From Gammaproteobacteria bacterium (lineage in GTDB: Bacteria; Pseudomonadota; Gammaproteobacteria; Enterobacterales; Permianibacteraceae): DNA of 64,000 bases. The translations under genes and the position numbers were made by a program. The stretch is taken from assembly GCA_016182845.1 (NCBI GenBank), contig JACPFT010000005.1, positions 434,001 to 498,000 of the forward strand, written 5' to 3'. Within the stretch, counting starts at the first letter, position 1, and every line of letters starts with the position of its first letter. Shown here in pieces: positions 20,029 through 23,247 of the stretch. The notes below the pieces were generated by a model. It searched no databases, was not told where the DNA came from, and saw nothing but the letters and a program-made list of their open reading frames with translations.

Positions 20029-20562
20029 TCAAGGTTTGGCGGCTTGCAGTGCCTTCAAATCGGTCAGCACGGTTTGGGCATGGCTGTCCGGATCCACCTC
20101 GGCATAATGCTTGGCGATGGCGCCGTCGGGATTAATCAGAAAGGTTTCACGGCGGGCGATTTTCAAGGGGCCGATCTCCCACAAGACGTCATAAGCCTTG
20201 GAGACGGACTTGCCGCTGTCGGCCAGCAGGGTGAAGGGCAGTTTCAGGGTGTCCGAAAAGTCCTTGTGGGAAGGCACGTCGTCGACGCTGATGCCGACGA
20301 TTCGGGCTTTCAGCGCCTGGTACTGCGCCTGCATGTCGCGGAAATTGGCGGCTTCCTTGCTGCAGCCGGGGGTCTGGTCCTTGGGATAGAAATACAGAAC
20401 CAGCCATTGGCCACGGAAATCGGCCGAGCTGCGCCAGGCGCCATTCTGGTCTTGGAGGCGGAACTCGGGGGCGGCGATGCCCTGCCATTGCTGGACGGCG
20501 AGGGACAGGGAGGAACACGACATCAAGCTCAAGGCCAAGCAGAATCGGGAAAAGATCAGCAT
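20029..20562 (-). CDS. Exported peroxiredoxin (BCP/PrxQ-like), single cysteine
   Basis: The 177-residue protein has a hydrophobic N-terminal signal (residues 1-22) and then a thioredoxin-fold peroxiredoxin. APEFRLQDQNG is followed by FYPKDQTPGCSKEA, with the peroxidatic Cys at C67. The resolving Cys that many PrxQ/BCP proteins have five residues later is absent, and the mature part has no other Cys. It should therefore act as a 1-Cys peroxiredoxin reduced by an outside thiol. LMSC at the end of the signal could also be a weak lipobox, making it a lipoprotein. It is predicted to reduce peroxides in the periplasm. It sits between the M48-like gene and a small outer-membrane protein gene, all on one strand. 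Confidence 0.87.
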   Translation of the reverse strand: MLIFSRFCLALSLMSCSSLSLAVQQWQGIAAPEFRLQDQNGAWRSSADFRGQWLVLYFYPKDQTPGCSKEAANFRDMQAQYQALKARIVGISVDDVPSHKDFSDTLKLPFTLLADSGKSVSKAYDVLWEIGPLKIARRETFLINPDGAIAKHYAEVDPDSHAQTVLTDLKALQAAKP

Positions 20563-20643: not shown

Positions 20644-23247
20644 TCACGCGCGCACTTGTGCCAGGCGGATGCGCAGGGGACGCAGTTCATGTCGGTTCTC
20701 GGCAGCCTCGGCATAGCGGCAGAGCTGGCCGAGCAAGCGCTCATTGTAGTGGCCGAGTTGCGCGCGCAGGCTATGGCTGAACGCGTGCAGGCTCCCCGCA
20801 TCCCCGCCCGCGCTCATGCCGGCCCAGGTCATCACGCTGCCCAGGCTGCCGGCTCCGAAGGGGTTCGGCAACACGTACAGAGCTTCTCTAAGCTTTAGTA
20901 GGCCACTTTCCAATTTCTCGCTATGCACGTGCAAGACGCGCTCGCGGCGCGCATTGCCTCGGCGAGAGGGCGAAACCAGTAGCTGTTCCAGGCAGTGTTC
21001 GGACTGCGCGAGCGTGTCCAATTCGCCTTGCAGGCGATGCAGGCCACGCAGGCAGGCCAGCAGGGGAGGCATTCCGCTGGGCAGTTCGCCGCCCAGGGCC
21101 AGGCCCCAGGCCAGGCGCTGAGCCTGCACCTCTTCCATGGATTGGAGTTCCAGGCGGCGTGTCGCCAGGGTGGTCAGGGCTGCTTCCAGCGCATTTTCGA
21201 TGCGCTTGGCATCCTCGTTCTGCCCGCCTTCGCCGGCATCCAGCCGCACCCGCTGGGCTTGATAGTGCATGACTTGAGACAAGCCCGCGTCATACTGCTG
21301 ATAGAGCCGGGGGACGCTGGGCAGGAGTTGGCGCAGTTGGTCCAGGGCTTCTTGCAGACGTTGCAGCTTGAAACGCTCGTCCGTGCCCTGCAAGGTTTCC
21401 AGGCTGGGCAGGCTGAGGAAACGATCCGGACGCTGGCTGCCGAGGAAATAGCGCTCCAGGGCCGCATAGGCCTCGTCCTGATCCTGAGTCAAGTTGAGCA
21501 GCTGGGCAGAGCCGATGCGCACTCCCTCGTTGTCAGCGATGCCCTGGCGCGCATAGAACTTCTCGGTGAGCTGACGCGAAAGTGCCGGCAGTTCGCTCAT
21601 CCGCGGCTCGGCGATAATTTCGAACACCGGGACGCCATGGTCTACGCTCAGGGCCTGAATACGCTCACCGATACTCGGTTGGCTGGTCCAGAGGCTGGGT
21701 TCCTCGGCGAGCAATTCCTTGCGGAAGGCATCCAACCCTTCCTGGCTGGACTGCCGGGCGAAACGCAGGCAAAGCAAGACGCGATCATCGGCGAGCTGGC
21801 CCAGTTCCCAAGCCTGCCAGGTCTTCGCCTCGGCCAACTCGTCGGCCTCCTTCAGCCAAGCCGCCGCGACCAGGGCATCGGCGTAGTGGCCGGAACCGAT
21901 CAGCTGTGCGGCGATGGCGTCGGCGCGCAGGCAGAGGGCGCGCTTGACCGGCCGATGGGCTAGCTCGCTCAGTTTCAGAAGGCCGTGCAAGGGCGCCCGC
22001 AGCAGGCCTAGCAGCTGGATTAGCCGGAACGCCCAGCCTTCCGGCATTGCGGTTTCGGCATGGCGCGGCGCTTGCGGCAGCCGCTTTTCGAACCAGGACT
22101 GCTTGTTCACGCCTTGGGCGAACCAGGTGTGCACGGAATCGATCAGGAAGGCCAGTTTCATCACCCGCCACTGGGCATAGCGAGCCAGCTCGTGGCTGAG
22201 CACGCCTGCCAGATGCACCGGCTTCAGTCCCGAAAGCTGTTGGGCGGAGATGGATAGCGCCAGTTGCTGGCGCCAGTAGCTGGCCAAGCCATTGCTGAGG
22301 CGAACCGCGCTACCGGGCGCGAGCACCAACTCGATTCGCCCGGGAGCGGGAACCCGCAGCTGGTCGCTCAGCCGGGCCAGCCAGGCGTGCAGTTCGGGTT
22401 GTTGGTCCGGGCCCAGCTTCAGGCCTTCCTGAACCTCCCCCGGCGCTTGAAACAGCGGTTCCAGCCAGAGAAACAGCAGCAGGAGGCCGGCGGCGCTGAG
22501 CAGCAACGCAGGCAAGATCGCGAAGCCGCTCGTCGCATTGCCGGCGAGGTCCCAGAGCGTATCGCCTAGTAAATAGGCGAGGCTGAAAACGCCGCTCAAA
22601 TACAGCGAGGGCAGGGTCAGCACCAGGGCCGCGATCAGGTTCAGCCGCAGTTGTTCCAGGCTGGACAAAGGCGGGATGTGCAGACGCCGTGCCGCCGTTG
22701 GCTGCATGGTCGCCTCAGGAGCCGGTTCGATAGGGGGCGTCGAGGGGGCTGCGGCCGGTTGCGCGTCGCTACGGTCGGCCGGTTCCGAGGCCGGGGGCTT
22801 GGCTTCGCTCCCTTCCGCAACCGCCGCTGCGACAGAGAGCGGCGGGGGCGGTTCCGGGCTTGCACCGGGCTGTTGGCTAAGGGCTAGGCACATTTTAGCC
22901 GCCGGCGCGGCGGGCTGTTCCGAGACGGAGGCCGGGCTCTCGGCCGGAGCGGGACGCGTTATGGCTGTGGGATGGAGGTTCAGGGCATGGACCGCGACGC
23001 GCATGCCGACGCGGCGAAAATTGCGCTCGTAGTGCACGGCCCGCTCGAAATTCAATCCAGACTTGACCGTGATCGGTTCGCCACTGAACAACCGCTCCGT
23101 CTGCGCAGCGCGCAGCTTGAACAGTTCCTGGGCGCGTAGGCGTACGCTGGCGGCATCGAAGCCGGGCAGGACCTCGCCGGAATACACGATGGCATGCAAG
23201 GTCGCTGATAGTTGGCTGCTTTCTGTTTCCACGCGATGCGAACCCAT
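20644..23247 (-). CDS. M48-like membrane protein with degenerate zinc site
   Basis: This 867-residue protein has three parts. The N-terminal module (about 15-90; SGEVLPGFDAASVRLRAQELF, RLFSGEPITVKSGLNFERA as key stretches) resembles one I remember in front of various gammaproteobacterial membrane domains. A Pro/Ala-rich linker (about 95-190) precedes hydrophobic segments at about 208-270 and an M48-like domain. There the HExxH motif reads HELAR (H352-R356), and the expected third ligand motif ExxxD/EAD reads RAD (R441). Two zinc ligands are therefore replaced by Arg and proteolysis is unlikely. A long helical C-terminal half (about 500-867) shows no recognised family. It is upstream of the peroxiredoxin gene on the same strand. 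Confidence 0.8.
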   Translation of the reverse strand: MGSHRVETESSQLSATLHAIVYSGEVLPGFDAASVRLRAQELFKLRAAQTERLFSGEPITVKSGLNFERAVHYERNFRRVGMRVAVHALNLHPTAITRPAPAESPASVSEQPAAPAAKMCLALSQQPGASPEPPPPLSVAAAVAEGSEAKPPASEPADRSDAQPAAAPSTPPIEPAPEATMQPTAARRLHIPPLSSLEQLRLNLIAALVLTLPSLYLSGVFSLAYLLGDTLWDLAGNATSGFAILPALLLSAAGLLLLFLWLEPLFQAPGEVQEGLKLGPDQQPELHAWLARLSDQLRVPAPGRIELVLAPGSAVRLSNGLASYWRQQLALSISAQQLSGLKPVHLAGVLSHELARYAQWRVMKLAFLIDSVHTWFAQGVNKQSWFEKRLPQAPRHAETAMPEGWAFRLIQLLGLLRAPLHGLLKLSELAHRPVKRALCLRADAIAAQLIGSGHYADALVAAAWLKEADELAEAKTWQAWELGQLADDRVLLCLRFARQSSQEGLDAFRKELLAEEPSLWTSQPSIGERIQALSVDHGVPVFEIIAEPRMSELPALSRQLTEKFYARQGIADNEGVRIGSAQLLNLTQDQDEAYAALERYFLGSQRPDRFLSLPSLETLQGTDERFKLQRLQEALDQLRQLLPSVPRLYQQYDAGLSQVMHYQAQRVRLDAGEGGQNEDAKRIENALEAALTTLATRRLELQSMEEVQAQRLAWGLALGGELPSGMPPLLACLRGLHRLQGELDTLAQSEHCLEQLLVSPSRRGNARRERVLHVHSEKLESGLLKLREALYVLPNPFGAGSLGSVMTWAGMSAGGDAGSLHAFSHSLRAQLGHYNERLLGQLCRYAEAAENRHELRPLRIRLAQVRA

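Follow-up and report, generated by a model that had tools for sequence, protein, structure and literature searches.

The 64,000-nucleotide stretch analysed here (the window; positions 434,001 to 498,000 of contig JACPFT010000005.1, assembly GCA_016182845.1, Gammaproteobacteria bacterium) holds a stop-free open reading frame (ORF) of 867 codons with an ATG start, at window positions 20644-23247 on the minus strand. The encoded protein is related to the M48 zinc peptidases, as an earlier note made from the sequence alone had proposed, and judging from its former active site it is very probably not a working zinc peptidase. Its parts are listed below in window coordinates.

20644-23247, minus strand: putative 867-residue M48 pseudopeptidase (non-peptidase homologue of M48), from the ORF, Pfam, relatives and alignment
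22984-23202, minus strand: residues 16-88, module resembling ClpS and the bL12 C-terminal domain (bL12-CTD), beta-alpha-alpha-beta-alpha-beta, from hhalign, a Protein Data Bank (PDB) profile search and the AlphaFold2 model
22663-22983, minus strand: residues 89-195, Ala/Pro-rich linker, mostly disordered by prediction, from composition and a predicted local distance difference test (pLDDT) score <50 over residues 88-151 and 153-186
22444-22644, minus strand: residues 202-268, predicted two-helix membrane hairpin with the N-terminus inside, from hydropathy, Lys/Arg counts (positive-inside rule) and model helices 196-236 and 241-266
21643-22440, minus strand: residues 270-535, M48-like domain, from VIA-align
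22297-22320, minus strand: residues 310-317, position of the M48 substrate-binding edge strand, from the alignment, model strand 313-317 and the description of BepA
22180-22194, minus strand: residues 352-356, degenerate HExxH, HELAR, second His replaced by Arg356, from the alignment and residues
21919-21933, minus strand: residues 439-443, degenerate ExxAD, CLRAD, third-ligand Glu replaced by Cys439 and Asp443 retained, from the alignment
21661-21681, minus strand: residues 523-529, degenerate HPx4R plug, QPSIGER, His replaced by Gln523 with Pro524 and Arg529 retained, from the alignment, the motif being taken from PubMed Central (PMC) article PMC7950410
20647-21642, minus strand: residues 536-867, helical C-terminal domain common to the family, from whole-length alignment and model helices

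Against Pfam PF01435, the 867-residue protein scored 17.9 bits over residues 282-534, below the cut-off of 20.3. A relative with an intact active site in genome G011 matches it at E 1.5e-31 and itself scores 37.4 bits; because intact relatives exceed the cut-off, the homology with M48 holds, and the family assignment of the earlier note is borne out. The HtpX equivalog (NCBIfam PRK02391.1) gave 17.3 bits, where 341 are required. In the genome itself (26 contigs, 3.82 Mb), PF01435 is matched above the cut-off five times, the gene under study not being one of these; the weakest of the five is BlaR1/M56-type by sequence reading, which leaves four strong M48 proteins.

Zinc is contacted in BepA by H136 and H140 of HExxH, by E201 and by H246, the last within a conserved HPx4R plug (PMC7950410). 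An alignment of 38 rows, window protein included, was scored at five positions: the two His and the Glu of HExxH, the Glu that is the third ligand, and the His of the plug. All five residues are present in 23 rows and four in none, while one row scores three, two score two, four score one and eight score zero; degenerate rows (score 0-3) thus number 15 of 38, among them the window protein, which scores 2 through H352 and E353. Left out of these counts were loci L074 and L075 (taken as the same as G776 and G775), L045 (G002, 651 aa, HELGH), L064 (a second match in G777, 678 aa, AGELSR at HExxH), loci of the window's order that lack the module (G390 and G312, for example) and stretches of module alone.

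In the window protein, HExxH reads H352-E353-L354-A355-R356, with Arg for the second His just as first noted. The EAD motif had been read as RAD, with R441 for Glu; loss of the third ligand stands, but the register does not. The invariant Glu lies in column 439 (Glu in 23/23 intact relatives, Cys in the window protein), and column 441, which is D in 14 intact rows, N in five, Q in three and A in one, is not a ligand position. The two replacements are therefore one Arg (Arg356) and one Cys (Cys439), not two Arg. The plug His, the fourth zinc-contacting residue, is also lost (Q523), a change absent from that reading. Around these sites, Asp443 and Arg529 are unchanged in 38/38 rows and the Pro of column 524 in 36/38. 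Zinc-site ligands are lost while surrounding scaffold residues persist, and the combination by which a pseudopeptidase is recognized, catalytic residues absent and scaffold residues retained, is found in the window protein. The idea that Arg might be conserved among relatives fails, as column 356 is R, Y, G or L across degenerate members and column 439 holds any of eight residues (V, I, Q, C, A, M, R or L).

The AlphaFold2 model of the window protein, for which nine relatives from a scan of named genome contigs were added to the input, has a mean pLDDT of 71.6 and a predicted template modelling (pTM) score of 0.61. When VIA-align was run on Foldseek's candidates, M48 structures filled the first nine places (Z 8.4-11.4), followed by BlaR1 (7.8). 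Ste24p reached Z 11.4 (199 residues, 5.7 Å), ZMPSTE24 10.6, HtpX 9.6 (89 residues, 2.9 Å) and BepA 9.6 (158 residues, 4.1 Å). The same modelling applied to another degenerate protein, L074, gave pLDDT 73.1 and pTM 0.50, and here M48 structures took the first four places, with Ste24p at Z 9.7. By prediction, then, residues 270-535 adopt an M48 fold. The M48-like part is predicted to face the cytosol because two helices follow an N-terminus that lies inside; the M48 part of HtpX is cytosol-facing as well. Similarity of the C-terminus to ABC-transporter helices (Z about 6-8) was rejected as a helical-bundle effect.

The N-terminal module and the helical C-terminus had both been called unexplained. 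The C-terminus is now seen to be family-wide, still without known function, and the module can be described as bL12-CTD/ClpS-like. Aligned by hhalign with 25 bL12 sequences of related genomes, it gave a probability of 94.5% over 68 columns, compared with at most 15.9% for 60 column-shuffled bL12 alignments and 0.1% for a reversed alignment. A whole-family profile run against the PDB placed L7/L12 (1ctf) first at E 0.0034, with five more L7/L12 entries next. The modelled module matched L7/L12 (8yeq, Z 6.7; 1ctf, Z 6.2) and ClpS (9ayn, Z 6.7) over 67-75 residues at 2.7-2.9 Å, and the intact relative L052 scored 14.5 bits for PF00542, the Pfam bL12 family, below the cut-off of 25.9. The module is present in 15/15 degenerate and 9/23 intact rows, which are related to one another and so are not independent counts.

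Other proteins carry the module as well. A second module-bearing membrane protein is encoded in the same genome (L014:310-2085 on contig C18, minus strand), where a bL12-like module is followed by a Pro/Ala linker, a single apparent membrane helix and Peripla_BP_6 (164.3 bits); its make-up suggests a sensor whose docking module is cytosolic. Small module-headed proteins with Ser-Leu/Val-Ala and Gly repeats and Pro-rich spacers occur in several genomes, at L007, L012, L013, L027 and L030, and Pfam at E <= 1 gave no match on the one at L013. The module would serve membrane proteins as a reusable docking domain in the cytosol, and its place at the head of the Peripla_BP_6 protein would fit such a part.

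With the window protein as query, 11 of 59 related genomes match at E <= 0.001 and 19 of the 394 genomes of the order at E <= 1e-8 (own included), several of these through the N-terminal module alone. A family profile also matches 19/394 order genomes at E <= 1e-20, and in seven of them, its own genome among these, it spans the protein from module to C-terminus. Across the class, nine matches at E <= 1e-30 come from eight of 369 genomes, its own among them, and around these the counts are 3/5 genomes in the order of G494, 10/20 in that of G518, 1/3 for G429 and 1/1 for G412. Degenerate members occur in other orders of the class. Close relatives of the window gene were found neither in the genus (a sample of the genome itself) nor in the family (three genomes). 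Named genome contigs gave no match to the window protein alone; an alignment of three rows covering the membrane part and the start of the M48 region found nine loci there, in four Planctomycetota/Verrucomicrobiota metagenome-assembled genomes (MAGs), one Singulisphaera MAG, two Lysobacteraceae (one being Luteimonas salinisoli) and two gammaproteobacterial MAGs. In one Planctomycetota relative (L067), a zinc-ribbon-like Cys motif in residues 1-40 replaces the bL12-like module (Zn_ribbon_4, 21.4 bits, below the 30.3 cut-off), and the same replacement is seen by eye at the N-terminus of L069, also from Planctomycetota.

A maximum-likelihood tree of the 38 rows, built with the motif columns excluded, requires four switches between the intact and the degenerate state (3-4 in the 5-95% bootstrap range), and the starred branches force only one. 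A single clade of all 15 degenerate rows was not rejected by the approximately unbiased (AU) test (p-AU 0.247), nor was one without the window protein and G429 (AU p 0.148). Because a single degenerate clade passes this test, neither one loss nor several is claimed here. Intact G761 and degenerate G494/G709 belong to one family, and this co-occurrence is suggestive only as to the number of losses.

Selection was estimated as the ratio of nonsynonymous to synonymous substitution (dN/dS) by the Nei-Gojobori count. Since the codons are rich in GC, such values mean most when genes of the same genomes are set against each other; an adjacent metH-like gene therefore served as control, in four species only. 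In the degenerate genus g240 (G518, G775, G773 and G776), six pairs gave dN/dS 0.25-0.36, and the metH-like gene of the same four species gave 0.12-0.18. Regional means in this genus were 0.18 for the module, 0.79 for the linker, 0.41 for the membrane part, 0.38 for the M48 core and 0.25 for the C-terminus, and the surroundings of the former HExxH gave 0.14, from 21 codons only. Adding a more distant fifth species (G774) gave pair values of 0.48-0.58; other degenerate pairs stand at 0.17 (G777/G778) and 0.26 (G770/G771, dS 1.6). Purifying selection on the degenerate state is thus measured in related clades, not on the window gene.

Altogether, the loss of the zinc site and the non-proteolytic role put forward in the earlier note gain support from a set of relatives in the same state. 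As distant bacteria carry like losses of ligands, the window protein has probably been retained for a job other than cutting, such as gripping proteins. At odds of about one in two, we take it to be a cytosol-facing M48 pseudopeptidase of the inner membrane that acts as a substrate-binding adaptor or scaffold. On this proposal, the two-helix hairpin would anchor the protein in the inner membrane, the M48-fold and helical C-terminal domains would lie in the cytosol, and the bL12-CTD/ClpS-like module would be held there on its flexible Ala/Pro linker. Catalytic zinc would no longer be bound, now that the second His, the Glu of the third ligand and the His of the plug have all been replaced; the fold and the scaffold residues around the old cleft would be kept, and the empty cleft could hold unfolded or membrane-derived polypeptide. 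The ClpS-like module may dock a partner (an AAA+ protease, perhaps, or a different factor in membrane proteostasis), to which substrate would be presented much as in the non-catalytic function of YqgP toward FtsH. We infer the absence of catalysis, the topology, the binding of substrate and the identity of the partner.

Two precedents exist. The edge strand of BepA is described as serving a chaperone-like activity as well as proteolysis (PMC8423444), and the Bacillus rhomboid YqgP presents a substrate to FtsH without activity of its own, for which its active site must be unoccupied and its cytosolic N-terminal domain is required (PMC7231995). These precedents would fit the window protein because the parts match, namely a non-catalytic cleft, a membrane anchor and a cytosolic domain of ClpS fold. 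Like the rhomboid adaptors (YqgP in its non-catalytic function, Derlins and iRhoms), it would use a membrane protease fold without proteolysis. Rhomboids have an intramembrane serine protease fold unrelated to M48. With Ste24p/ZMPSTE24, HtpX and BepA, the window protein shares the fold of residues about 270-535, the Asp of ExxAD and the Arg of HPx4R; unlike them, it is without the second His, the third-ligand Glu and the plug His, and adds an N-terminal bL12-like module and a helical C-terminus of about 330 residues. ClpS and the bL12 C-terminal domain resemble residues 16-88 in fold and profile, the terms in which they were compared, but here the module is fused to a membrane protein and is neither a ribosomal protein nor a free adaptor. 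The closest parallels in layout are nine intact module-bearing relatives (G011, G055, G108, G123, G136, G077, G412, G479 and G761), with the same order of parts over the whole length; they retain HExxH, ExxAD and HPx4R and are 17-23% identical to the window protein.

Several observations weigh against this proposal. At the substrate-binding edge strand, Asn-Ala is replaced by Gly-Ser in the window protein. Foldseek with the whole window model found nothing at E <= 0.001, BepA ranking 28th at E 3.3; in the L074 model, ABC transporters tie with M48 from rank 5 (Z 8.4), and the M48 fold of both models was partly prompted because seven of the ten alignment rows were intact M48 relatives. PF00542 did not match the window protein at E <= 10, and its two matches in the same genome sit on contigs other than that of the gene. 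The gene has the lowest GC content at third codon positions (GC3, 0.76) among the 24 gene predictions listed for the window stretch from 7.4 to 40.9 kb, its GC content at first positions (GC1, 0.73) being among the highest; foreign origin or weak expression is possible. Its row ends the longest end branch of the tree (2.33) and falls in no starred set, so its placement is unsure. The whole-length protein is absent from the two family-mates (three family genomes including its own), and no partner, substrate or conserved neighbourhood indicating an adaptor was seen at the examined loci. Intact pairs with unsaturated dS have dN/dS of 0.06-0.07, below the degenerate clade, which therefore looks relaxed as well as constrained: the degenerate gene is freer than the intact gene, yet constrained, most where the catalytic helix was. 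Lastly, the other six full-length module-bearing proteins found in the window's order (394 genomes) are all intact. The earlier note had taken retained motifs in orthologues as a sign of recent mutation, and this is half the case, as these six retain them while other orders hold degenerate members. A recent mutation itself is unlikely, since several motifs differ together and the end branch is so long; recent mutation and sequencing error were both judged improbable from the separate motif changes occurring together and from the like state of other genomes.

The alternative that survives best, unlikely as it is, makes the protein a regulatory subunit that pairs with and tunes an active M48 peptidase of the same cell. 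Such a role is encouraged by the four other strong PF01435 matches in the genome and by the two-subunit enzymes of M16, which have a function-critical pseudopeptidase domain (PMC11266112). Those matches all lie outside the window, however, and a simple gene finder predicted no HExxH-bearing neighbour between 7.4 and 40.9 kb of the window or at 13 degenerate loci; dimerisation is indicated by nothing in this analysis. A little less credible is decay, in which this lineage ceased to need the protease and the gene now drifts, its ORF still open since the loss is recent. The long end branch, the low GC3 and the lack of a full-length counterpart in the two family-mates would all suit it. A stop-free run of 867 random codons has a chance of 3e-11 at the base composition of the window, which argues against drift, but a recently lost gene would be open too; loss is concentrated on the ligands with D443, P524 and R529 retained, and purifying selection acts on a similar state in another genus. 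Cys can bind zinc, and a rebuilt site in which H352, C439 and another residue hold metal would draw on the retention of H352 and E353, but it is very improbable, as H352 is the sole one of four zinc contacts left, C439 is the only replacement able to bind zinc well, and the remaining degenerate rows show V, I, Q, A, M, R or L in column 439. Because that column varies, there is no conserved replacement ligand in it, and a zinc site moved to a new motif was rejected for this reason.

A wider but doubtful reading is an adaptor class, composed of an inactivated M48 domain and a ClpS/bL12-like docking module, that arose more than once in Gammaproteobacteria and presents membrane or cytosolic clients to an AAA+ protease. 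It would repeat, on the unrelated M48 fold, the principle of the rhomboid pseudoproteases (Derlins). Pseudoproteases are known among rhomboids and other families; what is found here is an M48 version together with a bL12/ClpS-like module. No M48 pseudopeptidase family is described in the titles or abstract starts among the matches listed from the open-licence PMC literature, and the main text of a 2024 review of metallopeptidase pseudoenzymes (PMC11266112) is without 'M48'. In the available portions of PMC8621943, PMC9965338 and PMC7804941, M48 members appear as peptidases only, and PMC4826915 contains both 'non-peptidase homologue' and 'M48'; single inactive M48 sequences may be listed in databases. 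The same architecture occurs in intact and in inactivated form side by side, with the inactive clade retained across genera, so that a non-cutting role of M48 proteins becomes directly testable, and the module offers a handle on the partner of the protein.

Neighbouring genes were named by reading their first 70-75 residues. A conserved operon partner was rejected, as none recurs widely among the examined loci. The only repeated neighbour seen is the metH-like gene, from which the degenerate gene is divergent in the four g240 species (L076-L079) and, outside that genus, in G768 (L091); in G774 (L089), a metH-like fragment lies two genes away at a contig end, and other degenerate loci have differing neighbours. 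In the window, an ABC-exporter-like gene is the divergent neighbour of the M48-like gene, and downstream a peroxiredoxin-like gene (20029-20562) follows on the minus strand.

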